Below are positions 1 through 10,197 of a stretch of DNA of 52,607 nucleotides, piece after piece (the stretch's first letter is position 1; each line of letters starts with the position of its first letter). The DNA lies in NCBI GenBank assembly GCA_919903025.1, contig CAKKSE010000040.1:1-52607 (forward strand), read 5' to 3'. The position numbers and the translations under genes are program-made. The stretch comes from Nitrospiria bacterium. Its GTDB lineage: Bacteria > Nitrospirota > RBG-16-64-22. The notes under the pieces are model-generated. The model did no database searches and was not told the DNA's origin. It saw only the letters and a list, made by a program, of their open reading frames with translations.

Positions 1-1314
1 CATCTGGTCGAAGAGGCGCAGGAGCGCAAAGGCAAGGCGCAGCAGTGGATCGAGCGCTTCGGCCGGCGCTACAGCCCGGCGGTGCTGGCGGGCTCGGCTT
101 TACTTCTGGTCGTGCCGTGGGTCTTGGGATGGTCTCTTGCCGAATGGTCACTGCGCGCGGTGGTGCTGCTCGTGGCCGCCGCGCCGTGTGCGCTCATCAT
201 GTCCACGCCGGTCGCCATGGCCGCCGGCATCGGCTCCGGCGGGCGGCGCGGCATCCTCATCAAGGGCGGCGCGCACCTTGAACACTTGGGCGCGATCCGC
301 ACGGTCGCCTTCGACAAGACCGGCACGCTCACTCACGGCGAACCGGTCGTCACCGAGGTAGTCATGCTCGATGGCACGGAGCAGGAACTGCTCGCGATAG
401 CCGCGGCCCTCGAACACTACTCCGAGCATCCCCTGTCGCGGGCGATTGTCGCGCATGCACAGGCGACCGGCGCGCAGGCCGTTGCGGTCGAGGCCTTCGA
501 GGCGCTCGCCGGCGCCGGTGCCAAGGCCCGAATCGGGAATCAGACCTGGTACATCGGCAGCCCCGCGCTCTTCGAGCGACTCGGCGCCGGACGCAAGACT
601 GCCGAGACGCGCATCACCGCGCTCCAGGAACAGGGCAAGACCGTGGTGCTGGTCGGGAACGAAAACGGCGTGCGCGGGCTCATCGCCCTGCAGGACCACG
701 TGCGCGCCGGAGCAAGAGAGACAATCGCGCGGCTGCACGCGCACGGCCTATGCACCGCCATGCTCACCGGTGACAACGCGCGTACCGCCCACGCGGTTGC
801 CCGCGCGCTCGGCATTGACGACGTGTGCGCCGATTTAAAACCCGAAGACAAGGTCGCCGCCGTGCAGCAACTGGAGAAACTCCACGGCGCCGTGCTCATG
901 GTGGGCCACGGCGTCAACGACGCGCCGGCGCTCGCTGCCGCGACCTGCGGTGTGGCCATGGGCGCGGCCGGCACGGATGCCGCCATCGAGGCCGCCTACG
1001 TCGCGCTCATGGCTGACGATATCGGGAAGGTGGAGGAAGCGCTCGCGCTCGGCCGCAAGGCCCGGCGCATCTCCGCACAGAACATCGTGTTCTCGCTTCT
1101 CGTACTGGCCGCCATGATCCCGCTTGCCGTCCTCGGAGTCATTGGAGTGGCAGTGACGGTGCTGGTGCACGAGGCGAGCGAGCTGCTCTCGGTCGTCAAC
1201 GGACTCCGCGCTGGACGTCTTTCAAACCTGACCCGGCCGCGCGCCGGCCCCACCTCGTCGTCTTCCGCTCGCATCCGCGTCGATTCGGAAGCGCGCCGCA
1301 CAAGGATCTCTTGA
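1..1314 (+). CDS. P1B-type heavy-metal ATPase, C-terminal part (5' end outside window)
   Basis: This is a membrane pump that exports a soft metal ion using ATP. The frame is open from base 1, so the ORF-track Met at 82 is not the real start; residues before it (HLVEEAQERKGKAQQ) match the conserved stretch before the ion-pathway helices. Visible motifs are an APC ion-pathway motif (APCALIMSTPVA), DKTGTLT with the phosphorylated Asp, the SEHPLS P1B histidine motif, TGDNARTA, and a GHGVNDAPAL hinge. Two positions are odd: the usual CPC is APC, and the first Asp of the usual GDGxND is His. A Ser/Arg-rich tail of about 35 residues follows the normal end (HEASELLSVVNGLR). It converges on the minus-strand operon that follows. 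The metal cannot be assigned because the N-terminal metal-binding region is missing. Confidence 0.93.
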   Translation, partial: HLVEEAQERKGKAQQWIERFGRRYSPAVLAGSALLLVVPWVLGWSLAEWSLRAVVLLVAAAPCALIMSTPVAMAAGIGSGGRRGILIKGGAHLEHLGAIRTVAFDKTGTLTHGEPVVTEVVMLDGTEQELLAIAAALEHYSEHPLSRAIVAHAQATGAQAVAVEAFEALAGAGAKARIGNQTWYIGSPALFERLGAGRKTAETRITALQEQGKTVVLVGNENGVRGLIALQDHVRAGARETIARLHAHGLCTAMLTGDNARTAHAVARALGIDDVCADLKPEDKVAAVQQLEKLHGAVLMVGHGVNDAPALAAATCGVAMGAAGTDAAIEAAYVALMADDIGKVEEALALGRKARRISAQNIVFSLLVLAAMIPLAVLGVIGVAVTVLVHEASELLSVVNGLRAGRLSNLTRPRAGPTSSSSARIRVDSEARRTRIS

Positions 1315-1416
1315 TTGCACCTCTTCACCTCCGCACTCAAACAGCCCCTTCTTGGCACCGGAGGACAGCTGCTGGATGACCACATATAAAACGACCCCCA
1401 GAGGAGCAAAGCCTGG

Positions 1417-1521
1417 GTGGACACACCGGATGAATCGCCCGCTCGCCTCTTCGAGGAGCAGTACCTTGAGACGCTTGCTCATGTGAACAAACACAAGGAG
1501 CAGTATGCGGCCACGGAGTGA
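1417..1521 (+). CDS. Possible 34-aa ORF or gene remnant
   Basis: A short GTG-started frame has protein-like composition (LFEEQYLETLAHVNKHKEQY) and an AGAGGAG stretch about 11 bases upstream. It ends just before the convergent 169-aa gene. The same frame upstream, beyond a TAA, also reads like protein (FTSALKQPLLGTGGQLLDD), so it may be the decayed end of a longer gene. I recognise no family. It is below the size of the ORF track. Confidence 0.25.
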   Translation: MDTPDESPARLFEEQYLETLAHVNKHKEQYAATE

Positions 1522-1529
1522 GTCTAGAC

Positions 1530-2039
1530 TCAATTCCCTTGTTCCTCCGGTGCGGACTGTCGCGCCGCCCTACGCCAGATCCCCCAGAGGACGAGGCCCA
1601 GGAGAATGGCAAGCGACCCCTGCAGAGAGAGAAAGGCCGCGATCTTCATATACGCAAACCCCGGATGCACGAACCGCACGAGCCATCCCGCTCCCTCGTT
1701 CAACAGGGCCGAGAGGAACGGCACGGCGACCCCCACGGCCTTCCATCCGTTGCGGAGCGGAACAAACAGGAGCAGATGCGTAAGGAGAAGAAGGACCATC
1801 CCCATGATCGGCAGGTGGAAGTGCGTGACCTCCAGCATCCCCTGATACGTCCGGGGCGCCGTGTACTGCGCTTCGGAGCCGAGGTAGTACCCCACGACGG
1901 CTTCGTAGGAAAGCCCCATCTTCAGGAAGAAGAGGAGGAAGTTCGTCACCCACAGTCCCCCGAGAAACACAAAGGCCCAGGAGAGCGTGAGGCGCATCAG
2001 AGGAGCACCCTTCATCTCCCCGTTTGCCAGGTATTTCAT
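1530..2039 (-). CDS. Four-helix membrane protein of unknown function with membrane His residues
   Basis: This 169-aa protein has about four hydrophobic segments (roughly residues 16-40, 72-92, 100-118 and 132-155). The second contains the series THFHLPIMGMVLLLLTH. Its His residues are about 13 positions apart, the spacing at which helix-borne His residues of b-type cytochromes hold hemes near the two membrane faces; a further VHP lies before the last helix. Its start overlaps the stop of the FMN-binding gene by four bases (ATGA), so the two are translationally coupled. Last gene of the porin operon. I do not recognise the family; a heme-carrying redox partner of the flavoprotein is an inference. 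Confidence 0.8.
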   Translation of the reverse strand: MKYLANGEMKGAPLMRLTLSWAFVFLGGLWVTNFLLFFLKMGLSYEAVVGYYLGSEAQYTAPRTYQGMLEVTHFHLPIMGMVLLLLTHLLLFVPLRNGWKAVGVAVPFLSALLNEGAGWLVRFVHPGFAYMKIAAFLSLQGSLAILLGLVLWGIWRRAARQSAPEEQGN

Positions 2040-2575
2040 CGTCGATCCTCCGCAAGCTTCACCCGGTAGATCGCCAGCAGGCGGCGCACGGCATCGGAAA
2101 TGGCCCTTGACGAGAGCGTGGCCCCGCTGATCCCGTGGATTTCCCGCCCAACCCGAAGGTCCGGTGTCAGCCTACACCCTGCAAACTGCCCCAGCCACCG
2201 GGAAGAGGGCAGGTACTCGAGCGGCTCATGGAAGGCCAAGACATGGACGGCCCGCACCCTCCCCTCCGGGGTCAGGACAATGAGGACTGTCTCCGGCATC
2301 GTCCGCACGACGTGTGTTTCAATGAAGGCGTATCCCAGAACGCCCCCTGCTTTCCTGCCGACATAGACCGTCACGAGCCGGGATTCCAGGCGGCTCTGAG
2401 CCAGATCTTCGATCCGTCGAATTTCCCCCGGTGCCAGGAAGATGGTCCGGGCTTCCACGGACTCCGCCTCAGGAAAGGCGAGGCGGAGAGCCGCTTCCTT
2501 GCTGTGGAACACCGCAGCCCCCGCCTCCATCACACTACATACCAGCAGTACTAGTGCCAAAATAGCGCTTCGCAT
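2036..2575 (-). CDS. Secreted FMN-binding domain protein (NqrC/RnfG-like domain)
   Basis: A 179-aa protein with an N-terminal signal peptide (about residues 1-20, ending AGA). Its C-terminal half fits the FMN-binding domain of NqrC and RnfG. The HGISGATLSSRAI stretch near residue 150 matches the SGAT motif where FMN is bound covalently through Thr by ApbE-type transferases. It probably acts in electron transfer on the periplasmic side. The gene starts 20 bases after the porin stop and overlaps the next membrane-protein gene by four bases, so the three form one operon. No apbE is visible in the window. The substrate is unknown. Confidence 0.85.
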   Translation of the reverse strand: MRSAILALVLLVCSVMEAGAAVFHSKEAALRLAFPEAESVEARTIFLAPGEIRRIEDLAQSRLESRLVTVYVGRKAGGVLGYAFIETHVVRTMPETVLIVLTPEGRVRAVHVLAFHEPLEYLPSSRWLGQFAGCRLTPDLRVGREIHGISGATLSSRAISDAVRRLLAIYRVKLAEDRR

Positions 2576-2595
2576 GACGGCTTAATCCCTGACTC

Positions 2596-3876
2596 TTAGA
2601 ACATGTAACTCATTCCCACGTTCCACTGGTTGATTCCGGTCCCCGCCGCGTTCCGCCGGTCCTGGTAGTCGAACTTGACGGCCACGTTCGGGATCGGCTT
2701 GTACGTGAGGCCCATCGTCCAGACCTGGCGATCGTTGGCCGGATCGGCCTGATATCCCGCCGGCACGGCAGCCTGCGTGTTCAATTGCTCGTAGCGGACG
2801 AAGGGGGAGAGGGCGTGCGTCGTCCTCGGCCGAAAGAGGGGCAGCACGTCGTAGGCGCCTTGCAGATACCACCCTTTCATCCGCGAGCCTACTGAGGCCT
2901 TCCCCGTGACCCCTTTCAGGAGGTTCACCCGGTCGGCCTCCCCCACGCATCCCTCGGCATACAGCGCCCGGAGGTCGATCCCCCGCCATCGCCATTGGGC
3001 ATGGAGGTCCCAGAGCGTGACGGGCGCCTCAAGCGTCTGCCCGCCGACCTGATCCCCCTGCCCCGAGTTCCCGGCGAAGAACGAGGCGCCCAACGTGAGT
3101 CCGGGCACTCCTTTGTAGTCCAGGCGGCCGGTGAACGCCAGGTCCTCGGCCAGGCTCCGCGCCCCGCTCTGACGCCCGCCACGCACCCCCTCGGCCGCCG
3201 AGAACCCCGAGGCTTTCAACCCGGCTGTGACGTAGAAGCGGTAGTCCAGACCCGGAAGCGGCTCGCCGAACACCCCGACGCCGTTCTCCCGCCACGTCGT
3301 GGGGAGGATGAACCGCTCCACGTCCGGACGGAGGACGCCGTGGAACGTGACCGGCTCATGCTGCTCGTTCACCCATCCCATGGGGATGAGGACCATCCCC
3401 ATGCGGAGATTGGCGGCCGGGTGCAGGAGGAAATCGAGGTGGGCGAACTCCACCGACGCCTCCCCGCCCTTCCCCGTGCTCGCATGCTCGAACTCCAGCT
3501 CCGAGTTGAAGATCACCCGGTCGGAGAACTTGTATCCTAGGTAGATGACGCTCCGGAGGAAGTCGGCTTGGTCCCGCTTCCCCGAGGGGGTGCCGTCGTC
3601 CTTCGTCCCCTTGAAATTCTCGTACGTCAGCTCGCCGTAGCCGGCCAGCGAAACGCCCCGCGTGATCCCGTAGACCCTGGAGGCCGCCGGCCCCAGGCCG
3701 AAGTAGGGCTTCAATTCTTCCTTCTCCGGCAGCACGAGTTGCGTCTTCAGCTTCTCGATCTCCTCGGCCAGGATGCCGATCCTCCGCTCGACCTCCCGTG
3801 AAGCCGTCTCTTCGGCCGTTGCGGGACTCCCCGCGAGCAGGATGCCCAACGCCAACACCATCCATCGTGTTCCCAT
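2596..3876 (-). CDS. Outer-membrane porin-like beta-barrel protein
   Basis: I place the start at 3876 (MGTRWMVLALG), preceded by AGAGGAGGA, rather than the track start at 3939; this gives 426 aa with a clean signal peptide ending ATA-EE. A short coiled-coil stretch (REVERRIGILAEEIEKLKTQ) follows, and then alternating beta strands as in the phosphate-selective porin OprO/OprP or related carbohydrate-porin groups. The last residue is Phe (GMSYMF), as expected for an outer-membrane barrel handled by the Bam machinery. First gene of the operon with the FMN-binding and four-helix proteins. A Fur-box promoter and a terminator hairpin lie upstream, so iron control is likely. The solute is unknown. 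Confidence 0.85.
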   Translation of the reverse strand: MGTRWMVLALGILLAGSPATAEETASREVERRIGILAEEIEKLKTQLVLPEKEELKPYFGLGPAASRVYGITRGVSLAGYGELTYENFKGTKDDGTPSGKRDQADFLRSVIYLGYKFSDRVIFNSELEFEHASTGKGGEASVEFAHLDFLLHPAANLRMGMVLIPMGWVNEQHEPVTFHGVLRPDVERFILPTTWRENGVGVFGEPLPGLDYRFYVTAGLKASGFSAAEGVRGGRQSGARSLAEDLAFTGRLDYKGVPGLTLGASFFAGNSGQGDQVGGQTLEAPVTLWDLHAQWRWRGIDLRALYAEGCVGEADRVNLLKGVTGKASVGSRMKGWYLQGAYDVLPLFRPRTTHALSPFVRYEQLNTQAAVPAGYQADPANDRQVWTMGLTYKPIPNVAVKFDYQDRRNAAGTGINQWNVGMSYMF

Positions 3877-3900
3877 GACGTGTCCTCCTCTGGTTGCCTG

Positions 3901-3916
3901 CCTGCCAACAGGCAGG
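3901..3916. repeat. Small hairpin CCTGCC-AACA-GGCAGG
   Basis: A perfect 6-bp stem with an AACA loop sits in the leader between the terminator and the porin start codon. Confidence 0.6.
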
Positions 3917-3926
3917 GATGTGAAAC

Positions 3927-3974
3927 AAAAAAAGCCCACAGGGGTCCGGGATCAACCGGACCGCGCCGTGGGCT
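3927..3974 (-). terminator. Intrinsic terminator upstream of the porin gene
   Basis: Read on the minus strand, a two-part stem forms: AGCCCAC pairs with GTGGGCT, then an internal loop, then GGTCCGG pairs with CCGGACC. Seven T residues follow directly. It would end transcripts of the zinc-ribbon gene. Because it lies between the strong 4.2-kb promoter and the porin start, it could also act as an attenuator of the porin operon. Confidence 0.8.
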
Positions 3975-4031
3975 CTGGGCTCAAACATCCTCGGGCCTCT
4001 TACATCTGATTACTGACTCGCGTCTACCATC

Positions 4032-4085
4032 AAGGCTAAGGTTGAGGTTCAGAAAATCCTAGACCTCGACCTCAGCCTCAACCTC
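4032..4085. repeat. Short-period tandem repeat, 6-bp period, inverted arms
   Basis: The left arm has units AAGGCT, AAGGTT, GAGGTT. After about six bases the right arm has CTCGAC, CTCAGC, CTCAAC, which is roughly its reverse complement. The right arm runs into the last codons of the zinc-ribbon gene. Confidence 0.75.
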
Positions 4086-4269
4086 GTGCCTTCTGACTCC
4101 CGACTTCTGTTCCCAGCGGGATCCGCCACACCCGCTTGCACCGGCGGCACTTCAGCTCGACGGCGCCGTCCACCAGCCGGGCGATGAGCGAACCGCAGGG
4201 GCAGCGGAACTCGTCGCATTTTGTATGATTATGACATTCATTTTCAATCATGTCAAGCAAAAATCTCAC
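4078..4269 (-). CDS. Small zinc-ribbon protein, Com-like
   Basis: A 63-aa protein with two cysteine pairs (FRCPCGSLIARL and LKCRRCKR), the layout of the phage Mu Com family and related zinc ribbons; it probably binds nucleic acid. The track start at 4269 is GTG with GGAGG close upstream; ATG at 4251 gives 57 aa. Both lie upstream of or inside a strong -35/-10 promoter, so transcripts from that promoter could not carry these starts. Either the gene is read from a promoter further up, or its true start was missed. Its 3' end runs into a 6-bp tandem repeat. Function is not established. Confidence 0.55.
   Translation of the reverse strand: MRFLLDMIENECHNHTKCDEFRCPCGSLIARLVDGAVELKCRRCKRVWRIPLGTEVGSQKARG
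4227..4245. promoter_or_regulatory. Fur box overlapping the -10 region
   Basis: GATTATGACATTCATTTTC matches 15 of 19 positions of the classical Fur box GATAATGATAATCATTATC. It covers the -10 and most of the spacer, a position where bound Fur would block transcription. A fur gene lies 4 kb away, which supports iron control. Confidence 0.72.
4228..4256 (-). promoter_or_regulatory. Sigma-70 type promoter upstream of the porin operon
   Basis: On the minus strand a perfect TTGACA (4256-4251) lies 17 bases from CATAAT (4233-4228), giving a transcript start near 4221. The block is strikingly AT-rich against its surroundings. Only the zinc-ribbon gene and the porin operon lie downstream. Confidence 0.75.
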
Positions 4270-4474
4270 CCCCTCCGCTCGAAGACCACCGTATGGAGCA
4301 CGTCGGCCCAGACCCGGCTGCCGACCTCCAGCACCGTCGTGGAAGACTGCGTGCTGTGGACGACCTGGCCGGAGGGGAGCGCGACAGCGTAGAGGTTCTC
4401 CGACCCGTTCTCGGCGGCCACCCGCTAGCGGGAGCCGTCTATCAAACCGCGCCCAGGCACGTGCCTTGCGCGCC

Positions 4475-5167
4475 TCACCCTCCCACCCGCTTTACGAATA
4501 TCTCCTTCGCGATCTCCTCGTCCACGGCGAGGGTCGTCTCGCCGATCTCGAGGACGATCGAAGGCTGTTTCTGGACGAGCCGGACCGTGCTCCCTGGCAC
4601 GAGCCCCATCGCGCCCAGCTTCGGCAGGCGAGACGTGAACCCCGGCGTCATGAAGGCGACGCGCCCCGCCTCTCCCGGCGAGAGGTCCGACAGGCGGGAG
4701 ACGAGAGGCTTCAGGTCGCGCCGGTACTTGGCGCAACAGTCCCCTCGCGGGATCGGCTTGCCGTCCGGCGTCGTCGTGGGATGGCCGAGGAAGGCGCAGA
4801 CGGAGTCGGTCACCTGGGGCGAGAGGATGTGCTCGAACTCGCACGCGTGCCGAGTCGCCTCCTGGTCCCCCAGGTCGAAGACGTCCACGAGAAGGCGGCG
4901 GGAGAGCCTGAACCGCCGCACGATCCCCCGGGCCCATTCGTCGCCCGTCTGGGTCAGGGCGATCTCCTCTCCGGCGATCTTCAAGTGTCCTTCGCGGACA
5001 AGATGGTCGAGGAGCGAGCGCGGATCCGGCTCCAGCGTGACCGCCAGCGCGTCGGCGAGACGCGTCTTTCCCTCTTCCCGGAGAGTCCAGATCTGCTCCA
5101 GAATCTCCTCCAGCTTCTGCTTCTTGACCTGTTCTTCTTCGCCGTGCGGGGGGCAAAGCTCAACCAT
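4475..5167 (-). CDS. DtxR-family metal-dependent regulator with FeoA-like C-terminal domain
   Basis: A 230-aa protein. An N-terminal winged-helix region (about residues 15-75) is followed by the DtxR metal-binding and dimer domain, with HACEFEHILS carrying the Cys, Glu and His of the primary metal site. The typical LGHPTTTPDGKPIPRG follows, then a FeoA/SH3-like domain (about 155-228). The helix-turn-helix part is divergent (LADALAVTLEPDPRSLLDHL), so DNA-binding strength is uncertain. It directly follows feoB, which has no separate feoA here; the C-terminal domain may therefore serve FeoB or only the regulator. Start by GGAGGAAC upstream of the ATG. Confidence 0.88.
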   Translation of the reverse strand: MVELCPPHGEEEQVKKQKLEEILEQIWTLREEGKTRLADALAVTLEPDPRSLLDHLVREGHLKIAGEEIALTQTGDEWARGIVRRFRLSRRLLVDVFDLGDQEATRHACEFEHILSPQVTDSVCAFLGHPTTTPDGKPIPRGDCCAKYRRDLKPLVSRLSDLSPGEAGRVAFMTPGFTSRLPKLGAMGLVPGSTVRLVQKQPSIVLEIGETTLAVDEEIAKEIFVKRVGG

Positions 5168-5190
5168 GACGTTCCTCCTTCAAACAAGGC

Positions 5191-5284
5191 TTCACCGCAG
5201 AGAACGCGGAGCACGCCGAGAAAATCGTTCTTTGATCTCAAGTGTAGCCCTTTTTCTCTGCGCCCTCCGCGTTCTCCGCGGTCC
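5191..5284. repeat. Short-period tandem repeat, 9-bp period, inverted arms
   Basis: The left arm (5191-5224) has units ACCGCAGAG, AACGCGGAG, CACGCCGAG. The right arm (5251-5284) has TCTCTGCGC, CCTCCGCGT, TCTCCGCGG. The arms are near reverse complements around an AT-rich spacer. The element fills the gap between feoB and the DtxR-type gene. Confidence 0.8.
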
Positions 5285-5297
5285 AGGATGTTTCGTA

Positions 5298-7271
5298 CTA
5301 CAAGACCGGAACTAGGTTCAGAATCCAGTGCACTATTCCTCCAACAACGAACGCGAAGGGAAAGATGAACGCCGCCATTCCCAGGGCGGGCCTCAGGCCC
5401 CTCTCCTTGATCATCATGAAGAAATTCGCGATGCACGGAACGAACAGCGTGATCGTGACGAGCGACACGACGACCTGGTGCGCGTCCATCTGACCGGCCT
5501 TCTGGAGGGCGAACAAGCCCGCCGCGCCGTAGTCCCGCCGGAGGAACCCGACGAGAAACGCCTCGGTCGCGCGGGCCGGAAGCCCCAGGAAACCCTCCAC
5601 CAAGGGGGAAGTCACGCCGGTGAGCCACGCGAGGACGCTCATCCGGTCGAGGACGAACAGGACCAGCGTCCCCAGGATGAAGAGGGGAACGGCCTCCCGA
5701 AGGTACCACTCCACCCGTCCGGCGGTCTTGACGAGGATGTTGGAGAGGAGGGGACGGCGGATCGGGGGGATCTCCAGCATGAACTCCGTGTCGTCCCCTT
5801 TGAAGATGCGCGCGGAGAGAAAACCGACGAGAAAGATCACGCCGACGAGCGTCCCCACCCAGACCGCGATGCCAGCCCAGGGAAGCGTGGCGGCCATGCC
5901 CGTTACGACGCCAAGCTGGGCCGAGCAGGGAACGCCGAGGGCGAGGAGAAGCGTCACGATCATCCGCTCCTTCCGCGTCTCCAGGATCCGCGTCGTCATC
6001 GTCGCCATCGTGTCGCACCCGAGGCCGAGGATCATTGGAAGGACCGCTTTCCCGTTGAGCCCCATCGCCTTGAAGATCTTGTTGAGCATGACGGCCAGGC
6101 GGGGGAGGTATCCGGTGTCTTCGAGAACGGCGAACGCGATGAAGAACGTCGTCGTGATTGGAAGAACGATTGCGATGGCGTAGGTTAACGCCATCGTGAC
6201 GATCCCGTATTCCCCCACGAACAGATCCTGGAGGGGCTTCCAGGGAACGAGAAGAGTAATGAGGCGCGTCGCCCACGGGTTCAGGAACTGGCCGAAGACC
6301 GTTTCCTCGAAAAAATCGACCAGGACGCCCGCCCCGAGCTGGCCGACGAAATAGTAGATCAGAACAAGGACAAGGAGAAGGATCGGCACGCCCCAGACCG
6401 GGTGCATGGACCACTCCCCGAAGGCCCGGACCCACTGCGAACCGGCCGGGGGGAGCCGCGTCATCACGGATTGGAGGAGCGTATCCACGGTCCGCAGGCG
6501 CTGTTCGCCGATCACGTAGGCGAGCGGGAAGCCGTACCTGCGCTGGACCTCTTCCCGGACCTCTTCGAGGCGTTGGACCGCCGCCGCGTCAAGGCGGGCG
6601 TTCAGCCACTGTTTGAGGGAGGCGTCCCCGGCGAGGACCATCAGGGCGATCGACTCACGGGAAATGGGGGCGTCCGGGAGAAGCGCGGCGATCCGATCTA
6701 TCCCGTCCCGGATGGGCGCGTCGTAAACCGCCCGGAACGACGACGGCCGGGCGCCGCCGACCGCTTCCCTGAGCGCGTCGATCCCCTGCCGCTGAACGGC
6801 GACCGTCGTCACGACCGGAATTCCCAGTCTCCCGGCGAGGAGTCCCGCGTCCACGAAGACTCCCCGCGAACGGGCCTCGTCGTCCATGTTGAGGTCGAGA
6901 GCGACGGGCAGTCCCATCTCGATGAGTTGGATCGTCAGGAGGAGGCTGCGGCGGATGTTCTTCGCGTCCGCGACCTGGATGACGGCCCTCGGCGTCTCGG
7001 CTAGCAGGATGTCGCGCGTCACGAGCTCGTCCTCGGACGTCGGAACGAGCGAGTTGACGCCCGGCGTGTCGATGACGACGGCCCGGCGTCTGCCGAAGAC
7101 GGCGTTGCCCGTGCTCACTTCGACCGTCGTCCCGGGGTAGTTGGAGACGGTCACGTACTTCCCGGTCAGGAGACCGAAGATCGAACTTTTGCCGACGTTC
7201 GGATTGCCGAGGAGAATGACGCGGTCAACTCCCTCGTGGACAGCGGACGCGGAGACACCATGCTCGTGCAA
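5298..7271 (-). CDS. feoB: Ferrous iron transporter FeoB
   Basis: A 657-aa inner-membrane Fe(II) importer. The N-terminal G domain shows GNPNVGKSS (22-30), DTPG (68-71) and NMDD (128-131). A helical spacer and two Gate-type membrane regions follow, with LGLGCDTMATMTTRI and VPCSAQLGV matching the conserved Cys-containing gate motifs. It is somewhat shorter than E. coli FeoB (about 770 aa) and has no FeoC-like tail. The start is TTG, chosen because GGAGG lies six bases upstream. It sits between the FTR1 permease and the DtxR-type regulator, all on one strand. The gap before it holds two strong hairpins. Confidence 0.95.
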   Translation of the reverse strand: MHEHGVSASAVHEGVDRVILLGNPNVGKSSIFGLLTGKYVTVSNYPGTTVEVSTGNAVFGRRRAVVIDTPGVNSLVPTSEDELVTRDILLAETPRAVIQVADAKNIRRSLLLTIQLIEMGLPVALDLNMDDEARSRGVFVDAGLLAGRLGIPVVTTVAVQRQGIDALREAVGGARPSSFRAVYDAPIRDGIDRIAALLPDAPISRESIALMVLAGDASLKQWLNARLDAAAVQRLEEVREEVQRRYGFPLAYVIGEQRLRTVDTLLQSVMTRLPPAGSQWVRAFGEWSMHPVWGVPILLLVLVLIYYFVGQLGAGVLVDFFEETVFGQFLNPWATRLITLLVPWKPLQDLFVGEYGIVTMALTYAIAIVLPITTTFFIAFAVLEDTGYLPRLAVMLNKIFKAMGLNGKAVLPMILGLGCDTMATMTTRILETRKERMIVTLLLALGVPCSAQLGVVTGMAATLPWAGIAVWVGTLVGVIFLVGFLSARIFKGDDTEFMLEIPPIRRPLLSNILVKTAGRVEWYLREAVPLFILGTLVLFVLDRMSVLAWLTGVTSPLVEGFLGLPARATEAFLVGFLRRDYGAAGLFALQKAGQMDAHQVVVSLVTITLFVPCIANFFMMIKERGLRPALGMAAFIFPFAFVVGGIVHWILNLVPVL

Positions 7272-7314
7272 GAGGAACCTCCGGCCGGCGCGCGGGCCTG
7301 TGGCGCCGCACCGG

Positions 7315-7359
7315 GAAGAATTCGTTGAAGAACCCCGCCTTGAAAGGCGGGAATTCTTC
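7315..7359. repeat. Hairpin with bulge between FTR1 and feoB
   Basis: CCCGCCT-TGAA-AGGCGGG forms a core stem. An outer stem of GAAGAATT and AATTCTTC surrounds it with an 11-base bulge. Confidence 0.6.
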
Positions 7360-7394
7360 GACCTCCAAGGTGCTTTTCGATATTTGCATTCGTT

Positions 7395-7432
7395 CGCCGT
7401 AATCCCCGCCCCAAGGGGCGGGGATTACGGCG
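7395..7432. terminator. Perfect 18-bp inverted repeat downstream of the FTR1 gene
   Basis: CGCCGTAATCCCCGCCCC and its exact reverse complement are separated only by AA. It lies 12 bases after the FTR1 stop and would form a very stable hairpin in the mRNA. No T-run follows, so it is more likely an mRNA-stabilising or processing hairpin than a classic terminator. Confidence 0.65.
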
Positions 7433-7443
7433 CACTGCGCGGT

Positions 7444-8268
7444 TCAGTTGTGCGCGGATGATTTTCCGGCCCTGTGCACCAGGAGACTCGCCACCGTGAG
7501 CGCCGCGGCGTAGGCCAGAACTTCCGTCAATGCCGGGTTGGCCCGGTAGCCCGTGAGCGTCCGGACGGCCGTCCCGGCTAGGCTCTTGTGGTCGAGAAGC
7601 CATGAAGTGTTCCAGAGCGGCTTGACGATCGCCGGGACAAGACCGAGTTCGACCGCCTCGTGAACGGCGCTTGAGGCAAGCCCCGCAATCAACATAACGA
7701 GCAGGACCGTCGAGACCCGGAAAAACCAAGCGACAGGCAGGCGGGAAATCCCGGCGAAGAAGAGCCACGCAAGCCCCGCCGCAAGAACGATCCCGCCGGC
7801 GCCCGCCGCGAGCATGGACGCGTGGCTCACTGTCTCCGTCTGTTGAAGAACGATGCTCCAGAGGAACAAAACCGTCTCGGCCCCCTCGCGGAGTACTCCC
7901 AGGAAGGCGATCGCCGCCACGCCGCCCCAGGCCCCCCGCGTCAGGACCTCCTCCGCCCGCCGCTCGATCTCTCCCCGAAGAACGCGCTTGTTTCTCTGCA
8001 TCCAGACGAGCATCTGCGTGAGCAGGACCGCCGCCACGGAGAAGACGCCCAGTTCCATCCACTTCTCGGCCGGCCCTTCCCATGCGAATCCGTACGCCTT
8101 CACGATGCCGCCCAACGCCAGGCTCGCGATCACCCCCAAGCCCGCCCCCGCCCAGACGCCGGCGACGGCCCTCGGCTCCCCCAGCCTCCTGACCGCCGTC
8201 AGGAGTATCCCAATAATGATCGCCGCCTCCAGCGACTCACGCCATGTCACGAGCATTACGCTTGCCAT
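7444..8268 (-). CDS. FTR1-family iron permease (EfeU-like)
   Basis: A 274-aa protein with about seven transmembrane helices. It carries the two RExxE iron-binding motifs that define the family: RESLE at 10-14 and REGAE at 127-131. EfeU-type proteins import iron together with periplasmic or multicopper partners, but no EfeO or EfeB gene is present here. The start is supported by CTGGAGGATGCA just upstream of ATG. It lies downstream of fur and upstream of feoB on the same strand, separated by repeat or hairpin elements, which suggests one iron-regulated unit. Confidence 0.93.
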   Translation of the reverse strand: MASVMLVTWRESLEAAIIIGILLTAVRRLGEPRAVAGVWAGAGLGVIASLALGGIVKAYGFAWEGPAEKWMELGVFSVAAVLLTQMLVWMQRNKRVLRGEIERRAEEVLTRGAWGGVAAIAFLGVLREGAETVLFLWSIVLQQTETVSHASMLAAGAGGIVLAAGLAWLFFAGISRLPVAWFFRVSTVLLVMLIAGLASSAVHEAVELGLVPAIVKPLWNTSWLLDHKSLAGTAVRTLTGYRANPALTEVLAYAAALTVASLLVHRAGKSSAHN

Positions 8269-8296
8269 TGCATCCTCCAGGCAAATGCAGTGCGTA

Positions 8297-8373
8297 GTTC
8301 AGAGTTCAGAGTTGGGAGTCGAGGCAGTGGAAAGAACGCTCCGAACTCCACACCCCGAACTCCGAACCGACTC
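8297..8373. repeat. Short-period tandem repeat, 7-bp period, inverted arms
   Basis: The left arm has GTTCAGA twice, then GTTGGGA. The right arm has TCCGAAC, TCCACAC, CCCGAAC, TCCGAAC, near the reverse complement. It abuts the fur stop codon and fills the fur-FTR1 gap. Confidence 0.75.
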
Positions 8374-8374
8374 T

Positions 8375-8830
8375 TCATTTCCTCCGCCGTGCCCCCGGCT
8401 TCACTTTCCGACAGCCCCGGCAGACCCCGTACAGTTCCAGCTTATGGTCCTGGATCAGGAATCCGTGCTCCGCCGCCACACGGTCCTGGAGGCCTTCGAT
8501 TTTCACGTTCTCGAACTCGAAAATCTTCCCGCAGATCTTGCAAATCATGTGATCGTGGTGCCCGCCCGCCGCCGCCGGCTCATAGCACGACTCGTTCGCC
8601 CCGAACCGCCGCTCCTTCGCCACGCCCGCTTGGGCCAAGAGCTTGAGCGTCCGATAGACCGTGACCAGCCCAATCGCCGGGTTCTTCCGAGAGACGGACC
8701 GGTGAAGGCCCTCGGCGGTAATATGCCTGTGGGACGAGAGGAACTCCCGCGCGATCGCCGTCCGCTGACGGGTCGTCTTGAGCCCCTGACGCCTCAGATA
8801 CGCCTGGAATGTCTCTTCCCCGCTCGCCAC
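8375..8830 (-). CDS. fur: Ferric uptake regulator Fur
   Basis: A 151-aa metal-sensing repressor. The N-terminal winged helix (about residues 1-85) contains the recognition region IGLVTVYRTLKLLAQAGV. The dimer domain has GGHHDHMICKICG (His 91, 92, 94; Cys 97, 100) and a second CRGC pair (137, 140) for structural zinc. The GTG start is chosen for the GGGGGG stretch seven bases upstream. A palindromic Fur box lies about 25 bases before the start, pointing to autoregulation. Zur or PerR specificity cannot be wholly excluded, but the iron-uptake genes downstream favour Fur. Confidence 0.93.
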   Translation of the reverse strand: MASGEETFQAYLRRQGLKTTRQRTAIAREFLSSHRHITAEGLHRSVSRKNPAIGLVTVYRTLKLLAQAGVAKERRFGANESCYEPAAAGGHHDHMICKICGKIFEFENVKIEGLQDRVAAEHGFLIQDHKLELYGVCRGCRKVKPGARRRK

Positions 8831-8852
8831 CGGGCATCCCCCCAGCGATATT

Positions 8853-8871
8853 ATTATTGAAAACGATTTTC
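8853..8871. promoter_or_regulatory. Fur box at the fur promoter
   Basis: ATTATTGAAAACGATTTTC matches 12 of 19 Fur-box positions and centres on the perfect palindrome TGAAAA-CGA-TTTTCA. It lies in an AT-rich block directly upstream of fur. Confidence 0.7.
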
Positions 8872-8997
8872 ATGTTCTTTTATACGCCTCCCCTGGTCCC
8901 GTGTCAAGAGCAATGTCGGGACTTGCGGCAGTCCGGACAAGACCCGGAAACGCCGCTCTGGGAATCGATCTTCCTACCCCGGCAGAGGCCGCTCCCA

Positions 8998-10197
8998 TCA
9001 GACGGCCCGTTTTCCTTCCCTGACAACGACGAAGAACGCAGCGGACGAAAGGACGAGAACGACGGCGAGGGCGAGGAAGGCCGTCCGGTAGCCGGCTGAC
9101 GCGACGAGAAGGCCGGCCGCGATCGGTCCCGATGCGTGGCCCACGTCCATGACCGTCCCGAAGACGCCCATGGCCGAACCGTAGTGCCGCTCCCGGCAGA
9201 AGTCGGCCACGAGCGCCGGCACGGATGACGTGACGGCCGCCACGCCGATCCCGAAGACGGCGAGAACGGCCAGAAGAAGCTCGATTGACGAGAACCACGG
9301 AATCGCCGCGAGCGAAGAAGCCGTCACGAGGAGGCCGCCAGCGATGAAGGGCCGGCGCCCCATGCGGTCGGAGAATCGTCCGAGGATCGGTTTGGAGAGG
9401 ACGGTGACGGCGAGTTGTACGCCGAACAGAACCCCCACGTGGGCGCTGTTGAGCCCCACCGAAAGGGCGTAGAGAGGGAGAAACGCCTGGATCGCGCCCG
9501 TCGCCAGGAACTGCGCGGCTTGCGCCGCAGACGTCACGAGAACGTTCCGATCTCCCGCGACTTCCCGCAGGCCGGCGACAAGCTTGGGCCACAGAGGGTC
9601 CCCGGCCGCCGAAGGGGAAGCAGGCCTCGGCGGAAGATCCAGCCGAAGGACCACGAGGACCAGGGCCAGGGATCCGGCCGCCCCCGCGCAGAGAAAAGCC
9701 GGGGAGAAACCGGCGCTGTAGACGATCGCCCCGCCGATCACGGGGCCGAGCAGGCCGCCCGTCATCTGGATCGAGGAGTACCACGACATCGCTTCCGCCC
9801 GCTTTTCGCGGAACATGTCCGCGATCACGGCCAGGACAACGGGGGACGTGACCGCCGTCGCCAGACCATGGAAGAAGCGGACTACGGTCAGTACAATCTC
9901 GTTCGCCGCCAGGAGGTAGACGAAGGGCGTGAATCCGAAGACCGCCATTCCGAACAGAAGGATGCGCTTCCGAGGCAGATGGTCGGAGAGGGCGCCGGCG
10001 GGGAACTTGACGAAGATCCCGGTGATCGTCGAGGCGGCGACGATGAATCCGATTTCGGCGGGCCCCACGCCGAGCGACCCCGCGTAGAGCGCGAGGACGG
10101 GGCTCCGGATCATCTCGTACGACATCCAGGCGAGGAATCCGGCGGAGGAGAGGAGACCCAGCGTCCGGAGGGGTGAAAAATCTCCTTGTGTCGCCAT
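8998..10197 (-). CDS. Major facilitator superfamily transporter
   Basis: A 399-aa protein with about twelve membrane helices. It has the MFS loop motif between helices 2 and 3 (GALSDHLPRKRILLFG) and its counterpart in the second half (GRFSDRMGRRPFIAGG). It belongs to the drug-exporter-like group, but no substrate is evident. I prefer the ATG at 10197 (MATQGDFS) over the TTG at 10233 in the track because the extra residues are hydrophilic and unlike an MFS start. It ends about 125 bases before the fur promoter region and is divergent from the 50-aa gene. Confidence 0.88.
   Translation of the reverse strand: MATQGDFSPLRTLGLLSSAGFLAWMSYEMIRSPVLALYAGSLGVGPAEIGFIVAASTITGIFVKFPAGALSDHLPRKRILLFGMAVFGFTPFVYLLAANEIVLTVVRFFHGLATAVTSPVVLAVIADMFREKRAEAMSWYSSIQMTGGLLGPVIGGAIVYSAGFSPAFLCAGAAGSLALVLVVLRLDLPPRPASPSAAGDPLWPKLVAGLREVAGDRNVLVTSAAQAAQFLATGAIQAFLPLYALSVGLNSAHVGVLFGVQLAVTVLSKPILGRFSDRMGRRPFIAGGLLVTASSLAAIPWFSSIELLLAVLAVFGIGVAAVTSSVPALVADFCRERHYGSAMGVFGTVMDVGHASGPIAAGLLVASAGYRTAFLALAVVLVLSSAAFFVVVREGKRAV

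Follow-up and report, generated by a model that had tools for sequence, protein, structure and literature searches.

What do three adjacent genes for a porin, a secreted flavoprotein and a small membrane protein do beside genes of iron transport? The question is raised by contig CAKKSE010000040.1 of a Nitrospiria bacterium (52,607 nt, hereafter the window), an organism of a small class within the same phylum as Nitrospira. By sequence and profile searches all three ORFs were confirmed on the minus strand, i.e. the porin (2596-3876, 426 amino acids, with ATG at 3876 after AGGAGG), the FMN_bind protein (2036-2575, 179 amino acids, secreted, predicted acceptor of covalent FMN), and the membrane protein (1530-2039, 169 amino acids, four transmembrane helices), for which, together with its family, the working name MEM is used. 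The gap between the porin and FMN_bind genes is 20 bp, and the FMN_bind stop and MEM start overlap by 4 bp. The description in the earlier note of a porin adjacent to an SGAT-bearing FMN_bind protein and a four-helix membrane protein was borne out in its ORFs, motif and helices.

At higher coordinates, also on the minus strand, are located a DtxR/MntR-type regulator with a C-terminal FeoA domain (4475-5167; PF02742, E 1.7e-20; PF04023, E 7.7e-15), the ferrous iron transporter FeoB (5298-7271; TIGR00437 over cut-off), an FTR1/EfeU-family iron permease (7444-8268; PF03239, E 1.1e-40, with NF041756 below its cut-off), and a Fur-family regulator (8375-8830; PF01475, E 1.5e-34). Thus, FeoB and FTR1, named previously as neighbours, were identified by their profiles, with the DtxR-FeoA and Fur genes present too.

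MEM relatives were found in 69 of the 198 Nitrospirota genomes sampled, a minority being long-form or otherwise distant, and of the 64 genomes in the set for the phylum of the Gemmatimonadota locus, 12 contained a close and 2 a distant relative. The named contigs with MEM belong to Nitrospira, Manganitrophus, Troglogloeales, Methylomirabilota, Gemmatimonadota, Latescibacterota and an Oligoflexia bacterium (Bdellovibrionota). MEM is absent from two genomes of the window's own genus (92% and 89% complete), and may therefore be a variable trait in that genus. A related porin and an FMN_bind gene almost always come immediately before MEM: at 101 MEM loci, an FMN_bind hit was present in the same stretch in 95 (the hits at L040, L048 and L051 being spurious or without the motif), a related porin in 85, and ApbE in 70. 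None of the four was found in 20 random regions of 20 kb drawn from these genomes. A search of a plasmid collection returned FMN_bind matches of only 29-41% identity in unrelated contexts, and zero MEM.

Porin, FMN protein and MEM occur together in 83 loci of several phyla. This co-occurrence, together with the rearranged order of the genes at locus L176, makes it highly unlikely that a single transcript serves two functions, one of a Fur-regulated iron porin and the other of an unrelated respiratory flavoprotein pair, even if Fur-box porins, one of which is followed by feoAB, have been predicted in Geobacter and Desulfuromonas with no such partners mentioned (PMC545781).

While the trio stays, the iron importer at its side is exchanged. 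In Nitrospira, the gene order is FbpABC-type ABC transporter, ExbB, ExbD, TonB, divergent apbE, zinc-ribbon gene, porin, lipoprotein, FMN protein and MEM. The Manganitrophus-type order is solute-binding protein, permease, ATPase, Fur, porin, ApbE-FMN fusion and MEM, and the nearest solved relatives of this solute-binding protein are the Fe(3+)-binding proteins 7li0, 6g7n and 2pt1 (FutA/FbpA kind). Loci L033 and L055 read Fur, cupredoxin, FTR1, porin, ApbE-FMN fusion, MEM, and L062 reads Fur, FTR1, porin, FMN protein, ApbE, MEM. In the Gemmatimonadota group, FeoA-FeoB is divergent from the porin in all nine genomes with enough flank. The commonest importer at the trio is the ferric-type ABC system (FbpABC/FutABC-type). 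FeoB was accordingly rejected as a constant partner, and its proposed part in taking up Fe(II) fits the window and the Gemmatimonadota, whereas most relatives carry FbpABC/FutABC-type or FTR1 importers.

An importer or Fur was present at 51 of the 61 loci whose upstream flank reached 8 kb or more, and in 2 of 20 random regions of 20 kb (Fisher p 4e-9), although such p-values overstate independence, with phylogeny uncorrected and many Nitrospira loci being near relatives, and the number of distinct lineages gives firmer ground. By the profiles used, the other 10 long-flank loci had neither importer nor Fur. Because the set is conserved across phyla, exchanges its importer and is accompanied by Fur-like boxes (described below), its involvement in iron uptake is very likely, and the core of the earlier proposal, a Fur-linked iron-uptake module, is strongly supported. 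Plain co-regulation does not require a trio to adjoin three unrelated importer families across phyla, which argues against a redox pair that reduces some other target in iron shortage (siderophore or chelate ligand, copper, protein thiols) and is linked to iron by regulation only. We consider this reading improbable, even though no iron-binding site was recognised in the porin, the FMN protein or MEM and FMN_bind partners serve many acceptors (PMC8238504).

The Fur-like box of the window (4227-4245) agrees with GATAATGATAATCATTATC in 15 of 19 positions and is the best match of the 52.6 kb window as well as, with a looser pattern (reversed control 0 matches), of the 2.86 Mb genome, the runner-up in both being a second box ahead of fur (8859-8877, 14/19). 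The first box overlaps a sigma-70-like promoter, TTGACA-17-CATAAT (4228-4256, minus strand), with 11 of 12 consensus positions, such sites occurring at a mean of 0.8 per 7.6 kb in shuffled sequences. The window locus thus has a predicted box in the promoter region, as is looked for in members of a Fur regulon. Across the survey, boxes of at least 14/19 were found ahead of the porin at 51 of 74 loci as compared to 3 of 244 control genes, including loci of Nitrospira, the L052/L032 group, L065, L044, the Oligoflexia locus L098 and the window. The survey of conservation and Fur-box linkage suggested in the earlier note extended the set to several phyla and the boxes to the lineages just listed, and the boxes point to Fur control of the module.

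The same note had placed a Fur-box promoter ahead of a three-gene operon. The box and the promoter-like pair are present, but an ORF overlooked at the time and a hairpin intervene. The ORF (4078-4251, minus strand, 57 amino acids) encodes a zinc ribbon of four cysteines (C4, CxCG...CRRC), and its start carries the box at 4227-4245. The leader 3877-4085 folds at -96 kcal/mol (z -5.8 relative to shuffled sequences), and at its end a hairpin with a T7 tail (3927-3974, minus strand) resembles a terminator or attenuator. This hairpin is single-copy in the genome and falls after the zinc-ribbon ORF and ahead of the porin. Since the hairpin separates the promoter from the porin, it is not proven that the promoter drives all three genes, and the hairpin may be either an attenuator or a separator of two transcripts. 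A conserved attenuator ahead of the porin was rejected, as a good hairpin was found there only in L033 and L055 among the loci checked. An Rfam scan of positions 1300-9000 returned one weak match only, far below the gathering score.

The zinc-ribbon gene is present in 64 of the 83 trio loci, in 60 of these upstream of the porin on the same strand, whereas 20 background regions were all without it. The micro-protein follows the pattern CxCGxLxA...ELKCRRCKR without a Pfam family over cut-off, its likeness to the Mu Com zinc ribbon being weak and below the Pfam cut-off, and a natural guess is that it regulates the operon. Together with ApbE it is the other constant partner of the trio. The earlier note had held that its proposal would fall if the set stood apart from iron genes and had some other constant partner; this condition was examined and did not refute the proposal. 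As a separate observation, a palindrome such as GTTTGGTATACCAAAC is found in the divergent feoA/porin gap of L168, L170, L173 and L174 (Gemmatimonadota group), and appears to be of the kind used by DtxR-family repressors. In this gap, DtxR-type palindromes are present in about half of the Gemmatimonadota loci, mostly on the feoA side, and were given no weight in the argument.

The FMN_bind protein of the window was recognised by PF04205 (E 3.7e-6, 27.9 bits against a cut-off of 22) and weakly matched RnfG 9eri_G (E 0.0017). A Sec-type signal, MRSAILALVLLVCSVMEAGA, was judged by eye at its beginning, and the flavinylation motif SGAT (2117-2128, minus strand; residues 150-153) is situated in the C-terminal part in the context HGISGATLS, with FMN predicted on Thr153. 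The motif [ST]GA[ST] is present in 89 of the 95 FMN hits at MEM loci, and four of the remaining six read AGAT or GGAT, which is consistent with covalent FMN on the secreted partner. A search for apbE, likewise proposed in the earlier note, identified a single ApbE gene in the genome (E 1.2e-91), on contig C27 and away from the module. The likely N-terminus of this ApbE, MRKAGVVLVIVFLMAAGC, is of the lipoprotein-signal or lipobox type, so that the periplasm would be the place where ApbE encounters its secreted substrate.

In most MEM clusters ApbE is encoded within the cluster or fused inside it. The ApbE-FMN_bind fusions (L032:6943-8466, L033:7395-8906, L036:9229-10755 and relatives) are without an N-terminal signal and contain an internal twin-arginine motif (SRRRFL) between the ApbE and FMN domains, directly ahead of the latter, implying a single chain whose ApbE half presumably stays in the cytoplasm while its FMN half is exported by Tat. 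In Methylomirabilota, the twin-arginine signal (SRRRFL) is at the N-terminus of the FMN protein. As a rule, an FMN domain with a twin-arginine signal is accompanied by ApbE without a signal, and an FMN protein with a Sec signal by ApbE with a lipobox or signal. Because where ApbE resides varies with the export signal of its FMN substrate, the pattern suggests that flavinylation precedes Tat export in the one group and follows Sec export in the other.

The AlphaFold model of MEM consists of four transmembrane helices (pLDDT 84). Searches with MEM gave no Pfam or NCBIfam family at E up to 1, zero relatives by sequence in PDB, and in Foldseek a best E of 1.0, with nothing above chance four-helix bundles. 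When compared with the known membrane partners of flavinylation (NapH, MsrQ, PepSY, DsbD, NQR/RNF-like, DUF4405), it matched none at the level of a family. Eight residues are invariant in all 52 FMN-linked homologues (Y52, G54, E70, H73, H75, H88, K100, W119), and they include the pattern E70-x-x-H73-x-H75-(12)-H88. By the positive-inside rule, H73 and H75 would face the periplasm and H88 would lie toward the cytoplasmic side.

Two axial-histidine pairs, typically about 13 residues apart in a helix, are the mark of di-heme b-type membrane cytochromes. H75 and H88, invariant in 52 of 52 homologues, are 13 residues apart in the same helix and fit this spacing, but the monomer has no second conserved pair, and heme would thus need a homodimer. 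H125 was rejected as a heme ligand since the residue is not conserved in the family. Of the heme-like histidine spacing put forward earlier, H73, H75 and H88 therefore stand by their invariance and the H75-H88 distance, whereas H125 is variable and second axial ligands are not evident, and MEM is a possible heme protein. A homodimer has been modelled for FezC (PMC11334425).

H88 marks the FMN-linked branch of MEM and is absent from its sister branch, in which a CXXCH (c-heme site) insert is found in the loop just ahead of HxH. In the tree, MEM of the window forms a long branch of unsure placement. One longer homologue with the CXXCH insert (L047:7073-9724) adjoins Rieske and cytochrome b/c genes, and may be a monoheme subunit of a bc-type complex that has gone unrecognised. 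The CXXCH branch and this neighbourhood are the main reason for placing the MEM superfamily in quinol or electron-transfer chains. An exchange of flavin for cytochrome has been described for other systems (Meheust et al. 2021, PMC8238504), and the FMN-linked and CXXCH branches of MEM present the same kind of exchange.

The porin of the window comprises a signal peptide, an N-terminal coiled-coil helix and a 16-stranded barrel (AlphaFold model, pLDDT 82), in which a helix (185-190) between strands 5 and 6 takes the position of the constriction loop of 16-stranded trimeric porins. The model resembles the trimeric porins OmpT, Omp32 and OprP (Foldseek E about 1e-13). No Pfam family was over cut-off, and Porin_O_P (PF07396) gave no match at E up to 1; the relative at L052 reached 18.1 bits with PF07396, below the cut-off of 20.9.

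Taken together, these features probably represent an iron-starvation module for reductive iron uptake, in which quinol-fed MEM would pass electrons through flavin to Fe(III) in the periplasm. The porin would admit small Fe(III) species or chelates to the periplasm. MEM, in the inner membrane, might receive electrons from the quinol pool directly or via a chain, and its periplasmic face (E70, H73, H75) would hand them to the ApbE-attached FMN of the secreted partner. The reduced flavoprotein would then reduce periplasmic Fe(III), releasing or mobilising iron, which would enter by the importer of each species, FeoB, FTR1 or the FbpABC/FutABC type. The localisation of the proteins and iron as the substrate are deduced from predictions and gene neighbourhood, and quinol as the donor and the direction of electron flow are put forward more cautiously still. 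The proposal of the earlier note, reduction of periplasmic Fe(III) through heme and flavin, is thus supported in part, for the iron-uptake module; MEM has no recognised cofactor site. Flavin-mediated reduction of periplasmic Fe(III) is nevertheless the reading to which we incline.

The FbpABC/FutABC systems count as ferric importers, and in FTR1 systems iron is oxidised again, so that reduction is not obviously needed in such neighbourhoods, which speaks against this explanation. The module could instead oxidise periplasmic Fe(II) and deliver the electrons to the quinone pool, loading Fe(III) importers or yielding energy, with the porin admitting Fe(II). Such a direction would accord with the ferric-type ABC system being the commonest neighbouring importer and with the cupredoxin carried by the FTR1 neighbours, and E. 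coli porins do admit Fe(II) together with Feo (PMC7315122). It is nevertheless an unlikely direction, because the trio is partnered by FeoB, which takes Fe(II), both in the window and in every Gemmatimonadota-group genome with sufficient flank, and the Fur-like boxes and TonB-ExbBD genes indicate assimilation. Bound flavins are usually low-potential reductants, which also speaks against oxidation.

Returning to the reductive reading, parts of it are already described, namely the tie of flavinylation to iron uptake (PMC8238504) and Fur-regulated porins in the feoAB regulon (PMC545781). Flavinylated proteins near iron transporters are known from MsrQ-like, PepSY-like and P19-FTR1 clusters (Meheust et al. 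2021, PMC8238504), which share with the present loci an FMN_bind substrate with [ST]GA[ST], ApbE, a membrane partner, a nearby iron transporter and, in some, Fur control. The present set differs from them as MEM is outside the five membrane-partner classes, the porin is constant, the zinc-ribbon gene is frequent, and the importer varies. The flavinylation- and ferrosome-associated DUF4405/FezC cytochromes (Huang et al. 2024, PMC11334425) are likewise small multi-helix membrane proteins with conserved histidines beside a flavinylated partner or iron transporter, but MEM has no DUF4405 match, and has four transmembrane helices with HxH-12-H in one helix. The Fur-regulated porins of delta-proteobacteria (psp and others; Rodionov et al. 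2004, PMC545781) resemble ours, by description only, in a porin with weak likeness to the phosphate-selective porins (PF07396), a Fur box and feoAB in the regulon, and neither flavoprotein nor MEM is described there. Cyanobacterial reductive uptake (PMC7676907) similarly combines outer-membrane entry (porin/TonB), a plasma-membrane reductase and alternative importers (FutABC, FeoB, Ftr1), but the reductase is a terminal oxidase (ARTO), not a flavoprotein with a four-helix partner.

In the literature searchable, MEM as a membrane partner, the joined set, the zinc-ribbon partner and the Tat/ApbE pattern were not found described. Neither Nitrospira joined with ApbE/FMN-binding iron uptake nor a porin-flavoprotein-MEM set with exchangeable importers was encountered, an absence that is weak evidence as subscription papers and preprints were not covered. 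The feeding of electrons to periplasmic iron before uptake seems to be a step so far unassigned in these bacteria. We tentatively suggest, with rather more doubt than for the reduction itself, that MEM and the flavinylated protein form an undescribed quinol-fed periplasmic ferric reductase, which with its own porin would constitute a full siderophore-independent route with interchangeable importers, and that Nitrospira-type nitrifiers and their relatives reduce and take up iron mainly by this route. If true, an unnamed family of membrane proteins, found in roughly one third of the sampled Nitrospirota, would gain a function; its holders include Nitrospira nitrifiers and Manganitrophus-type lineages, the iron physiology of which is little known. 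Moreover, flavinylated proteins would gain a new membrane partner, a porin would be tied to flavin chemistry, and a testable answer would be offered to how periplasmic iron is reduced ahead of non-siderophore uptake.

Some loci depart from the common arrangement. At L176 (5497-9106), the rearranged order is MEM, porin, ApbE, FMN, and this MEM has HxY for HxH in the alignment and is without H88. At L048 (7856-9247), an FMN_bind-like gene without SGAT adjoins a MEM relative that also is without H88. In the window itself, a heavy-metal P-type ATPase (82-1314) adjoins the module, its N-terminal part being cut off by the contig start.
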